From: Candidatus Electronema sp.
GTDB lineage: Bacteria > Desulfobacterota > Desulfobulbia > Desulfobulbales > Desulfobulbaceae
Direction: 5' to 3'
Assembly (NCBI GenBank): GCA_026645415.1
Contig: JAPEVH010000011.1
Location: forward strand, 1 to 64,000
Length of the DNA: 64,000 nucleotides
Positions 2,052 to 14,464 of the stretch are shown piece after piece. The notes under the pieces were generated by a model. The model was not told the origin of the DNA. It ran no database searches and saw only the letters and a list, made by a program, of their open reading frames with translations. Within the stretch, counting starts at the first letter, position 1; each line of letters opens with the position of its first letter. The position numbers and the translations under genes are program-made.

Positions 2052-3062
2052 CTATCTGGCACACCTGAAAAGATTCAAGCTGAACCACCTGTTGCTATCA
2101 AACCACTGACGTTCAAGTCGTAGTCCTGACTGCTTTGCCATTGCTTTAATTTTATCTTTTGAATATTTGCAGGATACCTCTACATGGATTCTTTCATTTT
2201 CTTTAAATGGAATTTCTAAATCAAGAGACTGAAGGTAAACTTTTTGATCTTTCATGCTCGTGACATAAGACTCCATCCTCGCCGCTTTTAGATTGCAGAC
2301 AGGATCATGGCGGAATGCGTCTGGATCAAAATCTGCTCCTAACTGACCATTGATTCTTTTCAGAATATTTAAATTAAATTCTGCGGTAACACCTTGGGAA
2401 TCATTATAGGCATCCTCTATCACATCCCAGTCCTTAAGTAAATCCATGCCAATAATGAAGCAGTCTTTTGGCTGCATCATTTTACTGATTTTAGAAAGAA
2501 ATTTTATTGCTTCAGCATCAGACATGTTACCAATGCTGGAACCTAGCCATAAGATAGTCTTGGGAATGTCTGTTTTTTTGAGAAACTGTATGCCATTTTC
2601 ATACTTGCCGCCAATAGCGGTAACCGAAAGATTTGGATAGGTTGCAACTAATTCCTGCGCACTTTTTTTCATATAACTGCACGAGATATCTATCGGTGCA
2701 TAATGGATATGTTCTTGGCGTTGAAAAAGGCAATCAAAAAACTTTTTTATTTTCAAAGGACTCCCATTGCCAAGCTCGGCAATAATCCCCTCTTCAGGAA
2801 TTTCTGCTATAATTTCCTCCATCCTGTTTTCAAGAATATCAACTTCTGATCTTGTTAAATAATATTCAGGTAATTCACAGATTTTGTCAAAAAGCGATGA
2901 GCCTTCATAGTCATAAAAGCAATAGCTACCAAGTGACTTAGGATCGGATAGCAAACCATCTCGTACATGATTTTTGAAATCTTCATAATCATCAAATTGC
3001 TCCAAACTTAAAAAGTTGAGGCGGCTTTTCTCCGTGTCAAAGTAATCACAGAAGTTCTGCAT
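2052..3062 (-). CDS. L-histidine N-alpha-methyltransferase, EgtD/EanA type
   Basis: This 336-residue SAM-dependent methyltransferase belongs to the EgtD family (Methyltransf_33), which trimethylates histidine to hercynine in ergothioneine synthesis. The family signature GSSLFDKICELPEYYLTR lies at about residues 54-71. It is followed by the SAM-binding IIAELGNGSP, PIDIS, and the family motif LWLGSSIGNM near residue 170. Length matches the family (about 320-340). No EgtB, EgtE or rhodanese-like EanB gene is in the window. It is transcribed away from the molybdoenzyme-desulfurase fusion across a 304-bp gap. A hercynine or related betaine product is likely, but the substrate cannot be proved from sequence. 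Confidence 0.85.
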   Translation of the reverse strand: MQNFCDYFDTEKSRLNFLSLEQFDDYEDFKNHVRDGLLSDPKSLGSYCFYDYEGSSLFDKICELPEYYLTRSEVDILENRMEEIIAEIPEEGIIAELGNGSPLKIKKFFDCLFQRQEHIHYAPIDISCSYMKKSAQELVATYPNLSVTAIGGKYENGIQFLKKTDIPKTILWLGSSIGNMSDAEAIKFLSKISKMMQPKDCFIIGMDLLKDWDVIEDAYNDSQGVTAEFNLNILKRINGQLGADFDPDAFRHDPVCNLKAARMESYVTSMKDQKVYLQSLDLEIPFKENERIHVEVSCKYSKDKIKAMAKQSGLRLERQWFDSNRWFSLNLFRCAR

Positions 3063-3366
3063 TGTATTTCCTCCTAAATATATTTAAACAGCATGACGAA
3101 ACAGAGCATCCAGCAAGCTCTCTACTGCAATATATCTTGCCTACAGACAGATCGTGATTGATATTGTTTTCAGCAGATTTAATTTTGATAACATAAAAAA
3201 TGTTTCAATGTCAAGTTGTTCGCCAAGGAAATGTGTTGCAAACAAAAAGCATTGATGCCATAATCATATATTTTCAGATGACAATATACTGATTAATTTA
3301 GCAAAATTAAATGGATAAATATTCTGACATCGGGCAGATGACCTGTTGTTGAGGAGGAGAAAATTC
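3063..3366. other. Divergent promoter region, methyltransferase / fusion gene
   Basis: This A+T-rich 304-bp gap separates two divergent genes and has no ORF of its own that looks real. It must hold both promoters. A minus-strand candidate is listed separately; I see no convincing +strand -35/-10 pair. Confidence 0.6.
3186..3214 (-). promoter_or_regulatory. Candidate sigma-70 promoter for the methyltransferase gene
   Basis: Read on the minus strand, TTGACA (3214-3209) is followed after 17 bp by TTATCA (3191-3186). The -35 is perfect and the -10 is weak. The transcript would begin about 115 bp before the start codon. Confidence 0.4.
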
Positions 3367-6300
3367 TTGAATACCCAACATGAGTCGCTTGATTATCGCA
3401 GAGGAATATGCGGCATTTGTCCAGCAGGATGCTGGGTAGAAGCTGGCCTGAAAGATGGAAAAATTGTCGAACTAAGGGCTGACACCTCTCATCCACTGGG
3501 CATGATTTGCCGTAAAGGAGAACATGCCGCTGAAATTATCTATTCTGAGCATCGCCTGCGATATCCGCTGCGCCGCACCGGGCCAAAAGGAACATATACC
3601 TTTGAGCGCATCTCCTGGGATGAAGCCTATGCGCATATTGGCGAACATCTACAAAAGATTAAAAAAGAATCAGGGCCAGAGGCGGTTTCGGTTTATACAG
3701 GCCGTGGAGCCTTTGAGCTGTCACTCTGCGACATGTATCAACCTAAAGATATTGCTGTCTCTTCCGCATCAAACATCCTTTTTCCTTTTGGTTCGCCCAA
3801 CACAATGGGCGTGGGCGCGCTCTGCTATGTATCGTTTGCCATGATTGCGCCCCACGTGACCATGGGACGAATGCTGATCAACATGTTCACAGATATAGAA
3901 CATGCTGAAATGATCGTAGTATGGGGGGCCAACCCTGCCACAGATTCACCGCCGCTTGATATGTATCGTCTTGAAGCAGCGGCAAAGCGAGGCGCGGACA
4001 TTGTCGTTATTGATCCACGCCGAAGCGAGACTGCTGCGCGGACTGATGCCCAATGGATTCCCATTCGTCCCGGCACTGACGGAGCCTTGGCGTTAAGCAT
4101 TATTGAGGTGCTGATTGACGAAGAGCTGATTGACGAAAATTTTGCCCAAAATTGGTGTCATGGTTTTGCTGAACTGAAAACTTATGTTCAGCATTTCCAG
4201 CCTGAGATTGTTGCCTCTATCACTGGTGTTCCCGCAGAAACCATTCGTACGCTTGCTCGCAAAATTGCTCATGCTTCTGGCTGTGCCCCAGTTATGTACA
4301 CAGGTCTTGAATACTCAAACAGCGGTATTCAGGCAATTCGAGCGGTGCTGACCGCATGGGCTTTGGCGGGCCAGCTTGATGTTCCTGGCGGCATTGGTCT
4401 GGCCATGCTCAACAGTCATTTTCCAATCAACCGTTCCTGTAATCTTGAGAATCCAAACCTTGACCGGGCCATTGCCAGAGATAAATTCCCGCTCTACAGC
4501 AAATACCGGGGCGAGTCTCATGCCATTGGCCTTGTTGACTCAGTGCTCAAAGGAGAACCCTATCCTATTCGTGGCTTGATTATTGACGGCGGCTCGATTC
4601 TCACTTCTTGGCCACAGACTCCACTTTGGCGGGAAACCCTGTCCAATCTTGATTTTCTGGTCTGCATCGACCGGCAGTTCACCGCAGATGCCGCCTATGC
4701 GGATATTGTTCTGCCCGCGACCACGATGTTTGAAATTGATTCCTATATGGTCTATGGGCCGATTTTCCGTTTACGGGAAAAATTGATTGAACCAGTTGGC
4801 GAGGCGAGAAATGATTACCTGATCATGGCCGAATTGGCCAAAACACTTGGCTACGGTGATCTCTTTCCCCAGTCAGAAGAGGAAATGATCCGTTTTGCTT
4901 TACAAGGTTCTGGCTTCACCCTAGAAGATGTTCGGAAAGCTGGTGGGATGATCCAATTGCCTGCGCCAACTATAGAGTATCGGAAATGGGAAAAGGGAAC
5001 TCTTCGTCCAGATGGCAAGCCTGGCTTTGATACTCCAACAGGAAAATTTGAAATTCATTCATCACTGCTGGCTGAGTATGGCTATGAGCCGCTTCCTAAA
5101 TACACAGAACCAAAAGAGGGACCGTTAGCAGCTCCAGAGCTGGCCCGTTCCTTTCCTCTTGTTTTTAATTCCGGCGCAAGAACGCACACTGATTTTCGCT
5201 CCCAGCATCATGGCGTACCCAGTCTGCTCAAGGAAAATCCTGAACCATATGTTGAGATTAACACCATAGATGCTCAAGCAAGAGGTATTCAAAGCGGTGA
5301 TCTTGTTGAGGTGCGTAGTCCCAGAGGCAGCGTCCCGTTTCGGGCTAGAGTTACAGAAGATATCGTCCAAGGGGCGATTGAGGCAAACATGGGCGGCGGC
5401 ACGCCGGTCGGACCAGCAGCTTGGCAGCGTTCAAACGTCAACGAGCTGACCGATCTTGCAAATTATGATGAGATTTCTGGCTTTCCAGTGTATAAAGCCT
5501 TGCTCTGCGAAGTTGTCAAAATTGAAGCAGGAACAGAGGCAACTCGAAAGAATGCGGAAAAAAAATCTGTAAAAAGTCCGTTAGCGCAGCAAGAGCAGGT
5601 ACAATGCAAACGACGAATCTATCTTGATAACAACGCAACTACCGCAGTCGCAGAAGCTGTAAAAGAAGCGATGCTGCCTTTTTTAGGGAGCCAGCACGGT
5701 AATCCTTCCAGTATTTACCGAGCTGGTCGTGAGGCCAAAGAGGCGGTGGAAAACGCTCGGCGGCAGGTAGCTCGATTGATCAATGCCAAGCCGCAGCGGA
5801 TTATTCTCACTGGTAGTGGTTCTGAAGCTGATAATCTTGCCCTGAAAGGCGTTGCATTTGCCTATCAGGATAAAGGCAAACATATTATCACCTCTACGGT
5901 TGAGCATCCTGCTATTCTGGAAACATGCAAGTTTTTACAACGCAGCGGCTTCCGTATTACCTTTCTGCCTGTTGATGAATTTGGCTGGCTTGATCCTGAA
6001 CAGTTGCGGAATGCGCTTACTGACGAGACTATTTTGGTGTCTGTCATGATGGCAAACAATGAGGTCGGAACTGTCCTGCCGATTAAAGAGCTTGCCGCCA
6101 TTGCTCATGAGCACGAGGTGTTGTTTCATACAGATGCGGTACAGGCAATTGGCAAAATACCTGTTAATGTAGAAGAGCTTGATGTTGATCTGCTTAGTCT
6201 GTCGGGTCATAAGTTTCATGCACCAAAGGGTGTTGGCGCACTCTATGTGAAAAAAGGTATCAAGTTGGAGCCACTCATTCATGGCGGGAAGCAGGAAAGT

Positions 6301-6768
6301 AAACTGCGTGCTGGCACAGAAAATGTTCCGGCGATTGTCGGCCTCGGCAAAGCTGCGGACTTAGCCCATTATGAATTGCAAGATGCGGAAAAAATGGCAG
6401 CCTTGCGGGATCGTCTGCAAGCAGGCATCAGCACAATAGTGCCTGATGCGCAGCTCAACGGCCATCAACAAAGCAGGCTTCCCAATACCTTAAATATGAC
6501 ATTTCCGGGTATTCGGGGAGAATCTCTTGTGATCGCGCTTGATCAGCACGGGATTGCGCTTTCTTCTGGTTCTGCTTGTAAGTCAGGTTCACCAGAGCCA
6601 ACGCATGTGCTCACCGCTATGGGAAAGAGCTTGGAAGAGGCTCACTGCGCCCTTCGCTTTTCGTTGTCGCATCAAACGAGCGAGGAGGAAATTGATGCAG
6701 TTCTCACGGAGCTTGCTTTGGTTCTTGATGAAATGAAAAATACGATCAGATTTCTTCCTTGTAAATAA
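3367..6768 (+). CDS. Fusion: molybdopterin oxidoreductase + cysteine desulfurase
   Basis: One uninterrupted frame of 1133 residues joins two enzymes. Residues 1-725 form a DMSO-reductase-family molybdenum enzyme: an N-terminal [4Fe-4S] motif (C15, C18, C22, C48), GSPNTMGVGALC with C153 as likely Mo ligand (as in polysulfide/thiosulfate reductases and formate dehydrogenases), VVWGANP, and a C-terminal molydop-binding domain. Residues 726-748 are a charged linker. Residues 749-1133 are a complete group I NifS/IscS-type desulfurase: YLDNNATT, VEHPAI, the PLP lysine K949 in SGHK, GTENVP, and the persulfide cysteine C1071 in SSGSACKSG. There is no Tat signal, so it is cytoplasmic. The TTG at 3367 is chosen because GAGGAGGAG precedes it; an in-frame TTG at 3346 lacks a ribosome site. 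IscS normally feeds sulfur to Mo-bisMGD through FdhD, so the fusion may sulfurate its own cofactor or pass persulfide to the Mo site. Substrate unknown. Confidence 0.92.
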   Translation: MNTQHESLDYRRGICGICPAGCWVEAGLKDGKIVELRADTSHPLGMICRKGEHAAEIIYSEHRLRYPLRRTGPKGTYTFERISWDEAYAHIGEHLQKIKKESGPEAVSVYTGRGAFELSLCDMYQPKDIAVSSASNILFPFGSPNTMGVGALCYVSFAMIAPHVTMGRMLINMFTDIEHAEMIVVWGANPATDSPPLDMYRLEAAAKRGADIVVIDPRRSETAARTDAQWIPIRPGTDGALALSIIEVLIDEELIDENFAQNWCHGFAELKTYVQHFQPEIVASITGVPAETIRTLARKIAHASGCAPVMYTGLEYSNSGIQAIRAVLTAWALAGQLDVPGGIGLAMLNSHFPINRSCNLENPNLDRAIARDKFPLYSKYRGESHAIGLVDSVLKGEPYPIRGLIIDGGSILTSWPQTPLWRETLSNLDFLVCIDRQFTADAAYADIVLPATTMFEIDSYMVYGPIFRLREKLIEPVGEARNDYLIMAELAKTLGYGDLFPQSEEEMIRFALQGSGFTLEDVRKAGGMIQLPAPTIEYRKWEKGTLRPDGKPGFDTPTGKFEIHSSLLAEYGYEPLPKYTEPKEGPLAAPELARSFPLVFNSGARTHTDFRSQHHGVPSLLKENPEPYVEINTIDAQARGIQSGDLVEVRSPRGSVPFRARVTEDIVQGAIEANMGGGTPVGPAAWQRSNVNELTDLANYDEISGFPVYKALLCEVVKIEAGTEATRKNAEKKSVKSPLAQQEQVQCKRRIYLDNNATTAVAEAVKEAMLPFLGSQHGNPSSIYRAGREAKEAVENARRQVARLINAKPQRIILTGSGSEADNLALKGVAFAYQDKGKHIITSTVEHPAILETCKFLQRSGFRITFLPVDEFGWLDPEQLRNALTDETILVSVMMANNEVGTVLPIKELAAIAHEHEVLFHTDAVQAIGKIPVNVEELDVDLLSLSGHKFHAPKGVGALYVKKGIKLEPLIHGGKQESKLRAGTENVPAIVGLGKAADLAHYELQDAEKMAALRDRLQAGISTIVPDAQLNGHQQSRLPNTLNMTFPGIRGESLVIALDQHGIALSSGSACKSGSPEPTHVLTAMGKSLEEAHCALRFSLSHQTSEEEIDAVLTELALVLDEMKNTIRFLPCK

Positions 6769-6789
6769 TCGATATATTTGAGGCATATT

Positions 6790-7662
6790 ATGAGCGTGTT
6801 AAAAGTAGGTATTCCCAAAGGTAGCTTGGAACAGGCAACTGTTGCGCTGTTCAAAAAATCGGGTTGGAACATCAGCATGACCTCCCGTAACTATTTTCCA
6901 GAGGTTGATGATCCTGAGCTGGCAATGTACATCTGTCGCCCGCAGGAGATGTCACGCTACATCGAGGATGGAATGCTTGATGCAGGTATTACCGGCAAAG
7001 ACTGGACACTGGAAAATGGCTCTGATGTAGTCGTGGTGGAAGACCTGATTTATTCTAAAGTCAGCCGTAGGCCGACCCGCTGGGTCATCGCGGTGCCTGG
7101 TGATTCACCGATTACGAAAGTCGAGGACTTGGACGGTAAAAAAATTGCCACTGAGCTAGTTAATGTTACGCGTAATTTTTTCGAGCAACGCGGCATAAAG
7201 GTGGATATTTCCTTTTCTTGGGGCGCGACGGAGGCAAAAGTAGTTTCTGGTTTGGCAGATGCAATTGTCGAAGTAACCGAAACTGAAGCGACTATCCGAG
7301 CACATGGTCTAAAGGTTATCCACGAGCTGATGCAGTCTAATACGCAACTTATTGCTGGAAAGCAGGCGATTGCTGACCCGTGGAAAAAAGAAAAAATCGA
7401 GCATATTGCTATGCTTCTCCAAGGTGCATTACGGGCAGACAAGATTGTTGGTCTAAAGATGAATGTGCCGGAGGAACGGTTTGAGGATATTCTCTCCATT
7501 CTACCTAGCGTCACGGCGCCGACCGTAGCCCGCCTGCACAAACAGCCTTGGTTCTCGGTAGAGACAGTTATTTCCGAGCATCAGGTGCGTGATCTGATTC
7601 CGAAGCTAAAAAAGCTTGGTGCAGCAGGCATTATCGAGTATTCGCTCAATAAGGTGATATGA
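6790..7662 (+). CDS. hisG: ATP phosphoribosyltransferase (long form)
   Basis: HisG joins ATP and PRPP in the first step of histidine synthesis. The protein has 290 residues, the length of the long form with a C-terminal regulatory ACT-like domain that binds histidine, so no separate HisZ is needed. Visible motifs are GIPKGSLEQATV at the N-terminus, DAGITGKDW, and the PRPP-binding stretch VEVTETEATIRAHGL. ATG 6790 fits the family start; an in-frame ATG at 6778 would add four residues. It follows the fusion gene by 21 bp, its 3' end overlaps engB by 4 bp, and no other his gene is adjacent. Histidine is also the substrate of the nearby EgtD-like enzyme, a link that may be chance. Confidence 0.93.
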   Translation: MSVLKVGIPKGSLEQATVALFKKSGWNISMTSRNYFPEVDDPELAMYICRPQEMSRYIEDGMLDAGITGKDWTLENGSDVVVVEDLIYSKVSRRPTRWVIAVPGDSPITKVEDLDGKKIATELVNVTRNFFEQRGIKVDISFSWGATEAKVVSGLADAIVEVTETEATIRAHGLKVIHELMQSNTQLIAGKQAIADPWKKEKIEHIAMLLQGALRADKIVGLKMNVPEERFEDILSILPSVTAPTVARLHKQPWFSVETVISEHQVRDLIPKLKKLGAAGIIEYSLNKVI

Positions 7663-8273
7663 TCGATTTCACCAAAATTGCTTTTCTCGATTCAGTTTAT
7701 AATCTGAAACGGCTGCCAGAACCGGTTTGCCCAGAGATTGCCTTTGCCGGACGTTCCAACGTGGGCAAGTCCAGCCTGATCAACAAGCTGGTTAACCGCA
7801 AGAATTTAGTCAAGACCAGCTCCAAGCCTGGTAAGACCGAGAGTCTGAATTTTTTTAAGCTGGAAGGAGGGATGTACTTGGTTGACCTGCCCGGCTACGG
7901 TTTTGCTCGAAAAGATCAGAAAACACGTACTGCTTGGCAGGAACTGATCAGCGGTTACATCCTCAGCCGGGCGGTCTTGGCCTGCGTGGTGGTGATTATT
8001 GATCTCCGCCACGAGCTGAAAAAGCTCGACCGGGATATGGTGGACTGGCTTGCTGCCAATGGGAAAAACTTTCTCATCATCTACACCAAGGCGGATAAGC
8101 TCTCAAACAACGAGCAGGCCAAGCAGGCCGCCGCCTTGGATGCAGCCTTAAACATCCGTCCAACAGAGCGGCTGCTCTTTTCTGCTAAGACTGGTCAAGG
8201 TTGCAAGGAGCTGAAGCAACGGCTGGCTGAGTTTGCATCATGCGCCCCTCTCCATCAGCATGAAGTAACATAG
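7659..8273 (+). CDS. engB: Ribosome biogenesis GTPase EngB (YihA/YsxC)
   Basis: This 204-residue TRAFAC GTPase is needed for assembly of the large ribosomal subunit. All G motifs are visible: G1 GRSNVGKSS, the G2 region KTSSKPGKTESLNFF, G3 DLPGYGFA, G4 TKADK and G5 SAKTG. Length matches the family. Its ATG overlaps the hisG stop (ATGA), so the two are translationally coupled. The end is followed by about 160 bp of non-coding sequence before the methyltransferase gene. Confidence 0.95.
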   Translation: MIDFTKIAFLDSVYNLKRLPEPVCPEIAFAGRSNVGKSSLINKLVNRKNLVKTSSKPGKTESLNFFKLEGGMYLVDLPGYGFARKDQKTRTAWQELISGYILSRAVLACVVVIIDLRHELKKLDRDMVDWLAANGKNFLIIYTKADKLSNNEQAKQAAALDAALNIRPTERLLFSAKTGQGCKELKQRLAEFASCAPLHQHEVT

Positions 8274-8432
8274 AGCGATTGCTTCTATCTGCTCGTCCCT
8301 ACCATCTGTTTGTTGAAATTTTATGCAAAATTGACAAGTTATCCGGCTTCGAGCAGATTAGCTCCGTCAATCTCATGGGGATGTATAGCACCAACAGCCG
8401 CAGGAAGAGAAGAGATAAAATTCAACGAGACA

Positions 8433-10349
8433 ATGAAACAAGCTGATATGAGAAGTAACTTACAGCCAGTCTGCTTTAAAGAATTTACAACCAGACCAAT
8501 TCTAAAATGGGTTGGTGGCAAAACGCAGTTATTAAGTGAAATCCTGCCGAAGATTCCTAAAAAATATGGCCAATATATAGAACCGTTTTTTGGCGGCGGA
8601 GCATTGTTTTTTGCGGTACGTCCAGATAACGGTATTATCTCAGACAGCAATCCTGAACTCATCAATCTGTATCGTGCAGTTGCAAAGCATGTTGATAGTG
8701 TGATTTCGTATCTCCAGCAATATGAAAATACAGAAGAAGTATTTTATGCTGTCCGGGCACAAGACTGGATGAAACTTTCATCTGCTGAAGCAGCTGCTCG
8801 CACGATCTTCCTGAACAGAACTTGTTATAATGGACTGTATCGAGTGAATAAATCTGGTCAGTTTAACGTTCCATTTGGGAGATACAAAAATCCAAAAATC
8901 ACAGATAAAGAGGCTCTATATGCAGCAGCTAACTTATTCAGAGATGTTCATATTATCTGCAATGATTACAAAAGTATTCTCAGAGAATACGCGAGGCCTG
9001 GAGATTTTATTTTCCTTGATCCTCCCTATTTACCTGTTTCAGAATATTCTGATTTCAAGCGGTACACTAAAGAACAGTTTTATGAAGAAGATCATATTGA
9101 ATTAGCTGCTGAGGTACACCGGCTTCATGAACTAGGCTGCCATGTGGCACTGACGAACTCAAATCATCCTCTCGTTCATGAACAGTATCGTAAATTTAAC
9201 ATCGAAGTGATACAGACAAAACGGTATGTTTCCTGCAAAGGCAGAGGCCGGATAGGTGAGGATGTGATTGTCACTGTCCCGCCAAAACAGCGTTTCAACC
9301 TTCGCGTGGTTCCACTTCCGCTGCCTCATCAGGCGACGCTGTACCCGCCGACCCGTTATATGGGTTCAAAAAATAAACTTCTTCCAGAACTTTGGGAGAT
9401 TGTTTCACAATTTAAATTTGATGCGGCAATAGATTTGTTCTCAGGTTCTGGTGCTGTAGGGTATATGCTGAAATCGCATGAAAAAACAGTATTAAGCAAC
9501 GATTACATGGCAATGTCGGCAGCATTTGCTAAGGCAATGATTGAAAACAACAAAATTACTCTGCCTCAGCATGAAGCCCTTGCTTTATTAGAACAGAACA
9601 AGCCAACAGATCGTTTTGTTGAAGAAACATTTAGAGGATTATATTTTAGTGATGAAGATAACTGCTTGATTGATATCATAAGAGCCAATATTAAAAGTAT
9701 AAGAAATCAATACAAGCGAGCTATTGCTATGACAGCCCTCATTCGTGCCTGTTTAAAGAAGCGTCCAAGAGGGATATTCACCTATGTTGGCTATCGCTAT
9801 GATGATGGCAGAAAAGATTTATCTATGACGTTCAGTGAGCAGTTTCTTAATGCTGTGACAGCCGTGAATGCCGCTGTTTTTGACAATGGGAAGAAAAACA
9901 AAGCGCGCTGTGGTGATGCAATGACAGTACAAAGCAAAGAAAATTGTTTGGTATATATTGATCCTCCATACTATTCTCCATTGTCAGATAATGAATATGT
10001 ACGCCGTTATCATTTTGTCGAAGGTTTGGCGCGTGATTGGCAGGGAGTGGAGATTCAGGAGCATACAGTCACCAAAAAATTTAAATCTTACCCAACTCCT
10101 TTTTCTTCGCGAAAGGGTGCGACTGAAGCATTTGACATGCTTTTCAAAAAATTCCGTAAGAATGTACTGATAGTTTCCTATTCCTCCAACAGTCAGCCGA
10201 CTCTGGATGAAATGATCGATCTAGTGATGAAATATAAAAAATTTGTTGAAGTTATACCGATTGATTACAGATATTCTTTCGGCAATCAAAAGCATAAAGT
10301 GAACGACAATAACAATTCAGTTCAGGAATATATTTTTGTCGGATATTGA
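8433..10349 (+). CDS. Fused double DNA adenine methyltransferase (type IIS)
   Basis: The 638-residue protein contains two complete N6-adenine methyltransferase modules. The first (about 20-290) is Dam/DpnM-like: ILKWVGGKTQLL, the SAM motif EPFFGGGALFF, and catalytic DPPY at D196. The second (about 300-638) has RYMGSKNKLL, the SAM motif DLFSGSGAVG, and DPPY at D510. Two modules in one chain fit a non-palindromic site in which each strand needs its own enzyme, as in M.FokI. The AlwI-family nuclease starts 5 bp after its stop. The start is uncertain: ATG 8433 and ATG 8448 are in frame, neither with a strong ribosome site, and the frame stays open to TTG 8310. Base composition looks more A+T-rich than the flanks, consistent with transfer. 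Confidence 0.9.
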   Translation: MKQADMRSNLQPVCFKEFTTRPILKWVGGKTQLLSEILPKIPKKYGQYIEPFFGGGALFFAVRPDNGIISDSNPELINLYRAVAKHVDSVISYLQQYENTEEVFYAVRAQDWMKLSSAEAAARTIFLNRTCYNGLYRVNKSGQFNVPFGRYKNPKITDKEALYAAANLFRDVHIICNDYKSILREYARPGDFIFLDPPYLPVSEYSDFKRYTKEQFYEEDHIELAAEVHRLHELGCHVALTNSNHPLVHEQYRKFNIEVIQTKRYVSCKGRGRIGEDVIVTVPPKQRFNLRVVPLPLPHQATLYPPTRYMGSKNKLLPELWEIVSQFKFDAAIDLFSGSGAVGYMLKSHEKTVLSNDYMAMSAAFAKAMIENNKITLPQHEALALLEQNKPTDRFVEETFRGLYFSDEDNCLIDIIRANIKSIRNQYKRAIAMTALIRACLKKRPRGIFTYVGYRYDDGRKDLSMTFSEQFLNAVTAVNAAVFDNGKKNKARCGDAMTVQSKENCLVYIDPPYYSPLSDNEYVRRYHFVEGLARDWQGVEIQEHTVTKKFKSYPTPFSSRKGATEAFDMLFKKFRKNVLIVSYSSNSQPTLDEMIDLVMKYKKFVEVIPIDYRYSFGNQKHKVNDNNNSVQEYIFVGY

Positions 10350-10354
10350 ATAAG

Positions 10355-12058
10355 ATGAAGCCGTGGCTTTTTGGAAACACGACCATCCGCAGCCCGTTCC
10401 GGCTTCGTGATGGCTTGTTGGCACTGAGTAAATCTTCATTGCATGGAAATTTGCGGGGAAAGGGGCAAGAAATCGCTTTCCGCCAGTTACTTGGAGAGCA
10501 TGGTATTGTTGCCCTTGGCAAGGATGAAACGTACAGCGTGGGGCGAAAGTGGCGTTCTGCTCTGAATAAACTGGGATTTCTTTACCCTGAGCTGCCTTCT
10601 TCCGCCGAAATTCCGCAGCATGAAATTGGCCCGCTTGACACGATTACGCCGAACGGCAGACGGCTGATCGAGGCTGACACTGTCCCTGCCATGCAGGAAT
10701 GCTTTTTGCGAGCATTGGCTGCGCATTATCTTCCTTCTCCATCAGAGCCGAAATTCACTTGCTCCATCTTCTCGCCCCTTCGTCATACACTGTCCGTCAT
10801 GCTTGAATTGGAGCGGCAGAGCGGAGAAAGCCGCCTTGATTTTTTGGAAATGGCCCTTGTTGTTCAACTAACGAGCAACGATGAATCCCTTTCTGACATT
10901 GTTGCATGGGCACTGGACTTACGCAAGGAACGGCTGGCCACGCCAAACAAAAAGCAATTTGACCGAAAAAAACGTGAATCTGCCGCCAAACTGCATGGAT
11001 ATGCTGCCGAGACATTCAACGATTACGCCGACACTAACCTGCGCTATCTTAAAGCAACAGGGCTAGTACAGAGCAAAGGGCGCGGTATTGGGTTAGTCCA
11101 GGAAAAACATTTGCTTGCTGAAAAATTGGTTCAGGATGCTACGGTTCCATCTTCTGATCGCGCTTATTTTGTCACCCTGTGCAATGGTGCGGCATTGCCA
11201 ACAGACAGCAGGGATTCAGCCTTAGCTGTGTTGGATGACCTGATGGCACAGTTAAACAAGCGAGGTATCTTGTTTGACGCAATCGGAATGTCTGTTGAAA
11301 CACCAGCAGACATTGCGATAATTCGGCATCGAATTGAGGACTTGCTGTCGAAGCGCAATGAAGAAGAATATGCTGATAGGCAAGCAGCAGAATGGGAAAA
11401 AATCGCCGCCTGTATGGAACTTCTCATTACCCGCAAAAACAAAAAAACGTTGGCGGACGGCAGTGAAATTGAGGTGCCGAAAGCTGAGGCTCCTGCCTAT
11501 TTCGAGTGGACTGTATGGCGTGCCTTTCTTGCGGTGAACAGCTTGGTAAACAAGCCTTATGAGGCCCGACGTTTCAAAATTGATCAGGATTTTCTGCCGG
11601 TCGGCACTGCGCCGGGAAATGGCCCTGATTTGATTTTTGAATTTGATGACTTTATCATTGCAGTTGAAGTGACTTTGACTGAAAATTCACGACAGGAAGC
11701 CGCTGAAGGTGAACCGGTCCGCCGTCATGTGGCTAATCTTGCCCTCAGTAGCAACAAACCAGTCTATGGGTTGTTCATCGCTAACCGCATTGATTCCAAT
11801 ACCGCAGAGACATTCCGAATTGGTGTATGGTTCGCCCGGAATGAGGAGAAGATGCACTTGGACATCATCCCGCTGACCTTGGGGCAGTTCAAAGCGTTTT
11901 TTGAAGCATTGTTCAAATCCGGGCGGCGTGAAGTCGGATTAATTCGTGAGTTTCTTGATTTGTCCAGTAACTTGCGGCCTGCGCATGAGGCACCGGCGTG
12001 GAAACAGGAAATTGGAAAACTTGTTGATCAAAAAGTTCAGCAGTTACAAGACATCTGA
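10355..12058 (+). CDS. Type IIS restriction endonuclease, AlwI family
   Basis: The 567-residue protein begins KPWLFGNTTIRSPFRLRDGL, typical of the AlwI/PleI/BspD6I endonuclease family (RE_AlwI), whose members recognise asymmetric 5-bp sites such as GGATC or GAGTC and cut outside them. The N-terminal half would recognise DNA. A PD-(D/E)xK-like core lies near PD (D425) and AVEVT (E438), followed by an RRHV stretch. It directly follows the fused methyltransferase, making a compact restriction-modification pair. ATG 10355 is preferred; a TTG at 10346 overlapping the methyltransferase stop is possible. The exact site cannot be read from the sequence. The frame is intact and looks functional. Confidence 0.85.
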   Translation: MKPWLFGNTTIRSPFRLRDGLLALSKSSLHGNLRGKGQEIAFRQLLGEHGIVALGKDETYSVGRKWRSALNKLGFLYPELPSSAEIPQHEIGPLDTITPNGRRLIEADTVPAMQECFLRALAAHYLPSPSEPKFTCSIFSPLRHTLSVMLELERQSGESRLDFLEMALVVQLTSNDESLSDIVAWALDLRKERLATPNKKQFDRKKRESAAKLHGYAAETFNDYADTNLRYLKATGLVQSKGRGIGLVQEKHLLAEKLVQDATVPSSDRAYFVTLCNGAALPTDSRDSALAVLDDLMAQLNKRGILFDAIGMSVETPADIAIIRHRIEDLLSKRNEEEYADRQAAEWEKIAACMELLITRKNKKTLADGSEIEVPKAEAPAYFEWTVWRAFLAVNSLVNKPYEARRFKIDQDFLPVGTAPGNGPDLIFEFDDFIIAVEVTLTENSRQEAAEGEPVRRHVANLALSSNKPVYGLFIANRIDSNTAETFRIGVWFARNEEKMHLDIIPLTLGQFKAFFEALFKSGRREVGLIREFLDLSSNLRPAHEAPAWKQEIGKLVDQKVQQLQDI

Positions 12059-12173: not shown

Positions 12174-12818
12174 TCAAATCGTAATCTTCTCTCCTAAAAA
12201 CTTCGGGCTAGTGTGCAATATCTCTACATCGAGCACACATACAAACTTGGAAAAAAATTCTCGCAGCCGAGTTTTAAATCCATAGTGCAAACTAACATCC
12301 TGCGCATTGTAACCGTACAACTCAATGCCATGTGCTCTGCCAATATATACCGCTCTGGTATTATGAAACTTCTGTGAAACAACAATCCCTTGTTTTTGGC
12401 CAAAGATTTCTCGAAAACGAAGTATCGAATCCAACGTTCTAAATCCAGCATAATCGCAGATCACATCTGATTTTTTCACGCCCATTTTAATCAGATCACG
12501 CTGCATTGTGATTGGTTCATTGTAATGAACTGTCGAGTTGTCACCAGAAACAACAATCTTTTTACACAAACCACTTTTATATAATTCTACAGCCGCAATA
12601 ATTCGATATTGATAATAGAGATTCCTCTTACCGCCTTTCAGCCACTTGGAAGTACCAAGAAGAATAGCACAATAGGTCGGATGTAACTCGCTGATGCTAT
12701 CAAAGGTGTACTTCTCATAACCATAATAGATCATCAGGTTGGCAGCACTCATGCCAATAACCGCAACAAATGCTGCAAAAGCACAAGCTCTTGTAACGCT
12801 CCCTAATCTCTTCATCAA
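12174..12818 (-). CDS. SanA/ElyC-like DUF218 membrane protein
   Basis: The 214-residue protein has one N-terminal membrane helix (about residues 10-30) and a DUF218 domain like that of SanA, which affects envelope barrier function in enterobacteria. Visible features are the opening strand AILLGTSKW, VVSGDNS with the acidic residue typical of the family, the conserved RTLDSILR, and VVSQKFHNTRAVYI. The start overlaps the stop of the radical SAM gene by 4 bp, so the two form an operon. The biochemical activity of the family is not established, and the link to the neighbour is only positional. Confidence 0.8.
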   Translation of the reverse strand: MMKRLGSVTRACAFAAFVAVIGMSAANLMIYYGYEKYTFDSISELHPTYCAILLGTSKWLKGGKRNLYYQYRIIAAVELYKSGLCKKIVVSGDNSTVHYNEPITMQRDLIKMGVKKSDVICDYAGFRTLDSILRFREIFGQKQGIVVSQKFHNTRAVYIGRAHGIELYGYNAQDVSLHYGFKTRLREFFSKFVCVLDVEILHTSPKFLGEKITI

Positions 12819-14464
12819 CTTGGCAATACTGCTATTTTGCTGAATGACTGTAGTCCGGCACTTTGTTCTGACAAAACAGCCAACATGGCCGGCCCATTCC
12901 CTAAACCAAGCAGTTCCATCGTTTGCGCAGAAAGTTCAAGAAAGACCGATTGCTTGAGAAATTCTGTCCGCGAACGAGCAGAAAAAAATCCATCTAATTC
13001 CTGCGGTAAGGTCTGGCGGAGACGGTCGCGCAGTATTGGCTGGGGCGTTTTGGTTAATTCTTTTGGAAGGAAGCGATGACCACAGCGCAGCCAGTCATAG
13101 CAAAGCAAATCAAGAAGGAGTTCTTTGTCCTGCCGTTGTTGGGCTAAGGCAAGCAACATCTGATTCATAAATGCCTGCGTATGCGCTAAACGAAAAAAGT
13201 CGTGCTGTTGACAGACTGCTAGCAGGTTTTGGAAAAAGTCGGATGGTTCCTCGTTGCTTTGCCGCAGATACTGCCAGAGCGAACAGAAAAAGCGATTATT
13301 ATAAAACGCCTCCACGCATTCGCAGAACTCGTACAAGTCGCGCAATTGTTCATGCGCTAACCAGCGCGTCGCAAGTACCTCATACGGTGGCTCGGCACAA
13401 TAGACTAAACCAAACTCATCTGCCCGTACTTGCATTTCTGTGCCGGGCAGCACTTTGAGCAGGCCGAGTTGGATATGATGTGGGCCGCTCTGAAAAACTT
13501 GATTAAAGGAAGCAAGGAAACTGGCTCGTGTCTCAAAAGGCAGGCCAAGAATCAGATCAGCGTGAATGTGAATGGTATCTAAAGCAACAAGACGGCCGAT
13601 GTTTGCCACAGCTTGGCCTACATTCATGCGCCGCTTGACTGCCGCTAAAGTCTGCTCATTACAGCTCTGAATGCCGATTTCAAACTGAAACAGGCCGCAG
13701 GGAACCTCAGTAAGTAAAGCAAACATTGCCTCAGTAAAGCGGTCTGGGGCAATCTCAAAATGAAAACGAACGCCGTCTGCTTCATCAAGAAGAAACTGCC
13801 ATAAAGCCAAGGCACGTTCTGGGTTGTCGTTAAAGGTACGATCAACCAGTTTGATAATCATCGGCTTGGCTGCAATCAGGCCGCGCAACTCTTCTTTGAC
13901 CACGTCCAGCGGCTTATGCCGTACCCCTTTGGAGATAGAGGACAGACAATACGAGCAGGAGAAAGGACAGCCGCGTGAGGATTCGTAATAGACCTGCCGA
14001 TTCTGGAGATAATGGGAAAAATCCTCCTGCTGATACGGTGAAGGAAAGCTGTAGCTTGGTTCTGCCTGATACAAGGCTTGCAAGGTTCCAGCTTGCAGAT
14101 CGTGGAAAAAGTCAGCAGTAGCCCCTTCAATTTCACCAGCAAAAACCGTGCAGTTGGGCGGTAGATTTTTCAGTGCTGCGGCTTGTGGCCCGCCCAAGAT
14201 GATGGGCACAGCAGGACGAAGACGAGCAAGGTCAGTAATGAGGCGGCTAATATACTTGTGATTCCAGATATAGACAGAAAAGAGAAGTGCCTGAGTCGGC
14301 GGGCCACTAATGCGCAGTAAGGTTGAATAATACGGATCGTTGATAGTGAGCTGGCTGAAGAGAATCGGTGTATCCGGCAAATGTTTTTGCAGGGCCGCCC
14401 GGACGCAGAACTGTGCCAAACAGGAATGGGTATAACGGCAATTAAGACTGATCAGATGAAGCAT
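12815..14464 (-). CDS. B12-binding-domain radical SAM protein (DUF4080)
   Basis: The 549-residue protein begins with a cobalamin-binding-like Rossmann domain (about 1-140, with SVYIWN and ILGGPQA). A radical SAM core follows, with the cluster motif CPFSCSYC near residue 170, and a helical DUF4080-like C-terminal region. Such proteins probably catalyse methylation or rearrangement of unknown substrates; none of the sequence tells which. The start MLHLISLNCRYTHS is typical for the family. It is cotranscribed with the SanA-like gene downstream, and its start faces the dnaN upstream region divergently. Confidence 0.85.
   Translation of the reverse strand: MLHLISLNCRYTHSCLAQFCVRAALQKHLPDTPILFSQLTINDPYYSTLLRISGPPTQALLFSVYIWNHKYISRLITDLARLRPAVPIILGGPQAAALKNLPPNCTVFAGEIEGATADFFHDLQAGTLQALYQAEPSYSFPSPYQQEDFSHYLQNRQVYYESSRGCPFSCSYCLSSISKGVRHKPLDVVKEELRGLIAAKPMIIKLVDRTFNDNPERALALWQFLLDEADGVRFHFEIAPDRFTEAMFALLTEVPCGLFQFEIGIQSCNEQTLAAVKRRMNVGQAVANIGRLVALDTIHIHADLILGLPFETRASFLASFNQVFQSGPHHIQLGLLKVLPGTEMQVRADEFGLVYCAEPPYEVLATRWLAHEQLRDLYEFCECVEAFYNNRFFCSLWQYLRQSNEEPSDFFQNLLAVCQQHDFFRLAHTQAFMNQMLLALAQQRQDKELLLDLLCYDWLRCGHRFLPKELTKTPQPILRDRLRQTLPQELDGFFSARSRTEFLKQSVFLELSAQTMELLGLGNGPAMLAVLSEQSAGLQSFSKIAVLPS

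Follow-up and report, generated by a model that had tools for sequence, protein, structure and literature searches.

A predicted metallopterin-dependent ergothioneine synthase encoded next to egtD in Candidatus Electronema

The first kilobases of contig JAPEVH010000011.1 from Candidatus Electronema sp. raise the question of what a single protein chain might do with both a molybdopterin enzyme module and a cysteine desulfurase. The stretch of DNA analyzed (positions 1 to 64,000 of the contig, hereafter the window) carries a single uninterrupted plus-strand frame of 1133 residues at 3367-6768, running from a TTG at 3367 to a stop codon at 6766-6768. A TTG at 3346 lies just upstream, but 3367 was favored as the start because of the strong GAGGAGGAG ribosome-binding site at ~3352-3360. 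This site is within the intergenic region (3063-3366, assigned to no strand) from which the gene and its neighbor egtD diverge, and in which promoter-like sites were found at chance level only. Based on the analyses below, the predicted activity of the product is, very probably, that of a metallopterin-dependent ergothioneine synthase (MES), and the gene is referred to here as mes.

This kind of enzyme has already been reported, as Beliaeva and Seebeck described the MES of Caldithrix abyssi (CaMES) in JACS Au in 2022 (PMC9516567), and the window protein is a further member of that published family. An initial, sequence-only reading of the window, which knew of no characterized example of such a fusion, is superseded on this point. 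In MES, the N-terminal part is a metallopterin module akin to acetylene hydratase, and a cysteine desulfurase that is functional forms the C-terminal part; the fusion was found co-encoded with EgtD in 55 genomes, and four MES homologues produced in E. coli converted trimethylhistidine to the antioxidant ergothioneine (PMC9516567).

Pfam analyses of the 1133-residue protein identified Molybdop_Fe4S4 (residues 13-60), Molybdopterin (63-492), Molydop_binding (604-711) and Aminotran_5 (751-1112), with E-values from 7.5e-8 to 4e-86; that is, residues 13-711 hold domains of the DMSO reductase family, and residues 751-1112 a class V aminotransferase domain that is complete. The desulfurase half exceeded the NifS equivalog cut-off of NCBIfam (539 versus 531 bits). 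No NCBIfam model came near its own cut-off on the N-terminal half, which indicated that this module is none of the named oxidoreductases. From these matches, together with the residues, alignments and fold match described below, we delimited an N-terminal bis-MGD/Fe4S4 module (residues ~1-720; 3367-5526), a linker (residues ~721-747; 5527-5607) and a C-terminal NifS/IscS-type cysteine desulfurase (residues 748-1133; 5608-6765), all on the plus strand and in the domain order of MES. The linker varied in length and sequence between homologues, and an alignment of 43 of them had not one near-invariant column between 719 and 746; this lack of conservation fits a role as a tether. The Pfam and NCBIfam results thus agree with the sequence-only reading that a full DMSO-reductase-family module and a full cysteine desulfurase share one frame.

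That reading had named an assembly error, or absence of the fusion from relatives, as what would count against it. The chance that two genes were joined by an error of assembly or sequencing is practically nil, as the frame was found inside a contig of the window's own genome at 100% identity, and the same full-length fusion was present in dozens of unrelated assemblies, including some contigs titled as chromosomes. Nor was it absent from relatives: the scan of the genome collection identified full-length fusions at ~61-73% identity in many contigs, and two other Desulfobulbaceae genomes carried copies at 83%.

Comparison with CaMES, made through the residue numbers and spacings given in PMC9516567, showed likeness in domain order, length, the four cluster cysteines, the metal-ligand cysteine, the PLP lysine, the two essential persulfide cysteines and the linkage to EgtD, with the window protein being three residues shorter (1133 versus 1136). 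The cluster cysteines C15, C18, C22 and C48 (C14, C17, C21 and C48 in CaMES) and the metal-ligand cysteine C153 (also C153, and essential, in CaMES) were invariant in 43/43 aligned full-length homologues. So were the PLP lysine K949 and persulfide cysteine C1071, which are 122 residues apart, and C1132, the second-last residue, which occupies the position of the relay cysteine. Their CaMES counterparts K952, C1074 and C1135 (again the second-last residue) are all essential (PMC9516567), and throughout the desulfurase half the two numberings differ by three, just as the two chains differ in length. Consequently, all the residues essential in CaMES (C153, K949, C1071 and C1132 in window numbering) were found at matching positions. 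C1094 was kept in 42 of the 43 homologues and corresponds to CaMES C1097, which is conserved but non-essential, having only a two-fold effect (PMC9516567). A second alignment of homologues agreed with the first. The cluster cysteines, C153, K949 and C1071 had been correctly picked out from the sequence at the outset; the invariant and functional C1132 had been overlooked, as had the adjacent EgtD gene.

A homologue of the class Calditrichia (L119), with exactly the length and numbering of CaMES, was 63% identical to the window protein. We considered whether it was CaMES itself but do not identify it as such, since the mass of its C-terminal fragment differed from the published 44820.4 Da with every tag tried, the nearest differences being -46.6 and +84.6 Da.

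The gene next to mes is egtD (2052-3062, minus strand), which encodes an L-histidine N-alpha-methyltransferase (TIGR03438, 325.6 bits against a cut-off of 290.9; PF10017, 335 bits) and is divergent from mes. It is the sole EgtD gene in the genome, and on these matches its predicted product is the enzyme that makes trimethylhistidine (hercynine), the MES substrate. Within the Desulfobulbaceae, the fusion and an EgtD above cut-off were identified in the same four of 74 genomes and nowhere else among the 74 (Fisher p = 8.7e-7, a value not corrected for relatedness and for which the effective number is smaller, as two of the four are near-copies). Among all MES genomes checked, EgtD was found in 43 of 48, two of these 43 having fragments only; outside the Desulfobulbaceae, the genomes with EgtD above cut-off comprised 32 of 37 (including the two with fragments), four of four further genomes and three more. 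EgtD was inside the fetched flank at 15 of 59 MES loci, and the arrangements varied. The window and its two near relatives had the two genes in divergent orientation, whereas egtD was on the same strand and just upstream of mes at three loci (L034, L041 and L086), downstream at two (L013 and L031) and convergent at two (L025 and L030). Clustering of the ORFs at MES loci identified EgtD as the only broadly recurrent real neighbor. A shared pathway is well indicated, as the association of EgtD with MES has been kept while gene order changed.

Based on the work on CaMES, the following course of reaction would apply to the window copy. The EgtD encoded next door would trimethylate histidine, and the PLP-dependent C-terminal module would move the sulfur of L-cysteine onto C1071 as a persulfide. 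From there the sulfur would pass to C1132 on the C-terminal tail, which would hand it to the metal, Mo or W, that C153 holds in the bis-MGD cofactor. The imidazole C2 of trimethylhistidine would then attack the metal-bound sulfido ligand, giving ergothioneine and a reduced metal able to accept the next sulfur. CaMES requires that its C-terminal module desulfurate cysteine, and its sulfur transfer is obligatorily intramolecular, as the K952A and C153S variants fail to complement each other (PMC9516567). We infer the same activity for the window copy, and the same chemical steps at the metal; these latter are tentative in the published work also, where the authors' scheme has the imidazole attack a Mo(VI) sulfido ligand and a persulfide re-sulfurate the metal (PMC9516567).

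The sequence-only reading had instead proposed a self-sulfurating molybdoenzyme. In its fullest form, an otherwise ordinary oxidoreductase would receive its terminal sulfido ligand once from its own desulfurase, as formate dehydrogenase does from FdhD and IscS. The N-terminal module does belong to the DMSO reductase family, and formate dehydrogenase and Aba3 are known cases of sulfur passing from a desulfurase to Mo (cited in PMC9516567). Three observations speak against this explanation, to which we give very little credence. The fusion is linked with EgtD. The gene for an electron-transfer partner is absent, with no 4Fe-4S subunit, membrane anchor or NAD module beside the fusion, whose neighbors are EgtD, HisG and EngB. 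Finally, desulfurase-dead CaMES K952A continues to exchange sulfur between trimethylhistidine and ergothioneine, which shows that its metal site is intact and working and that it lacks only new sulfur (PMC9516567). Thus what stands of the proposal is the passage of sulfur from desulfurase to metal within one chain; based on CaMES, this would happen at every turnover and lead on to trimethylhistidine rather than being a one-time event. A second suggestion, that the enzyme merely reduces or oxidizes its own persulfide, found no support. The sequence-only reading was right in noting neither a Tat-type N-terminus nor an adjacent electron-transfer subunit gene. For a MES, the missing redox partner is accounted for by the published scheme, in which none is needed because sulfane sulfur brings the oxidizing equivalents and the persulfide sulfur re-oxidizes the metal.

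The substrate of the window copy could also be a heterocycle other than trimethylhistidine, in which case the protein would still be a MES-family enzyme that transfers sulfur. PMC9516567 suggests that such activities may be common, and there was no clear EgtD in five of the MES genomes (G079, G080, G090, G096 and G102, the last being CP070656.1). For the window copy we regard this as very unlikely because EgtD adjoins mes, as it does in the two nearest relatives, and the 74 Desulfobulbaceae genomes agree. For the family as a whole, there is a slim chance that some members sulfurate another heterocycle, the likeliest being those in genomes lacking EgtD, such as G102; if so, MES would represent a wider class of molybdenum enzymes forming C-S bonds. 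The five genomes also leave room for some members that may import their substrate or use another. G102 (Neomarinimicrobiota bin809; MES locus L032), whose record is titled a chromosome, had a full-length MES and no EgtD was found in it, for which import of trimethylhistidine, a different substrate or an incomplete bin may each be the reason.

Fold searches ranked acetylene hydratase (2E7Z, from Pelobacter/Syntrophotalea acetylenica) first for the N-terminal module (~26% identity in the fold alignment); for the C-terminal module, Nfs1/IscS came first. Both results agree with PMC9516567. Acetylene hydratase shares with the N-terminal module its fold, type of cofactor binding and Cys metal ligand, but has no desulfurase and hydrates acetylene. 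NifS and IscS have the catalytic lysine and persulfide cysteine of the C-terminal module, but are stand-alone proteins that pass sulfur to separate acceptors, and alignments to their solved structures stopped short of the tail carrying C1132. AlphaFold2, run on the 43-row alignment, produced a model with a mean pLDDT of 76.7 and a pTM of 0.60, in which the C1071 loop and the C-terminal tail with C1132 had pLDDT values below 50 and residues 734-747 were also of low confidence. The placement of the modules relative to one another in this model is unreliable. If the tail is indeed flexible, this would suit a swinging persulfide carrier. A sequence search of the PDB identified no solved full-length MES structure.

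The contigs bearing the fusion had titles from Calditrichota, KSB1, Gemmatimonadota, Neomarinimicrobiota, Latescibacterota, Planctomycetota, Acidobacteriota, Actinomycetota, Chloroflexi, Bdellovibrionales, Gammaproteobacteria and others. The four Desulfobulbaceae genomes with the fusion are that of the window, the two with 83% copies, which are of another genus, and one with a copy at 58%; four sampled congeners of the host had neither the fusion nor EgtD. In the tree, the window copy formed a fully supported group with the two 83% copies, to which two Bdellovibrionales copies came next, and the 58% copy fell in a distant clade with one Myxococcota and one Calditrichia sequence. This patchy spread suggests two or more horizontal acquisitions within the Desulfobulbaceae, with loss as an alternative. 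MES homologues were reported exclusively in anaerobes (PMC9516567). Contigs titled Chromatiales, Thiotrichaceae, Microthrixaceae and Thaumarchaeota suggest that the range perhaps extends further, although these are metagenome bins and possibly mis-binned.

In four related contigs (L035, L056, L058 and L121) the MES frame was interrupted, be it through misassembly of the bins or through genuine decay. Five genomes (G004, G049, G060, G063 and G068) encoded stand-alone proteins of ~700 residues that were 34-36% identical to the fusion over its residues 2-730, and that resembled the MES N-terminal module more than did most oxidoreductases encoded in the same genomes. Two of these five frames hold an in-frame stop (one TGA and one TAA).

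We also searched for other routes to ergothioneine. In the four fusion-bearing Desulfobulbaceae genomes, all matches to EgtB models were partial and scored far below cut-off. EanB of Chlorobium limicola resembles MES in sulfurating trimethylhistidine independently of oxygen, but is a rhodanese-like, polysulfide-using enzyme unrelated to it (PMC9516567). None of the five rhodanese matches in the host genome (93% complete) was EanB-like, there being three small frames (133-188 aa) and two proteins judged by reading of their sequences to be a beta-lactamase-fold fusion and a disulfide-reductase fusion. With regard to the cofactor, the host should be able to make bis-MGD, since its genome has MoaA and a 346-residue frame that reads as a MobB-MobA fusion (MobA score 78.8, below the equivalog cut-off).

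Directly 3' of mes are hisG and then engB (6778-8273, plus strand), the likely hisG ATG, at 6790, lying ~20 bases beyond the stop codon of mes. A functional link between mes and hisG was considered and rejected, as the only counterpart of the window's hisG found beside MES elsewhere was a partial, distant one at the end of one locus (L057); the adjacency probably reflects just the site of insertion. Further along is a restriction-modification pair (8310-12058, plus strand), in which a single 679-residue frame that encodes two D12-class adenine methyltransferase domains overlaps, by four bases, the frame of an AlwI-type restriction endonuclease (PF09491, 444 bits). On the minus strand (12174-14464) are a radical SAM protein with DUF4080 (12815-14464) and then a DUF218 protein (12174-12818).

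For the family, the 43 aligned homologues, from about 12 phyla by record title, widen the sampled diversity of MES, and their list of invariant residues gives a firm base for work on the route of sulfur from desulfurase to metal. For the host, anaerobic synthesis of ergothioneine joins its predicted abilities.
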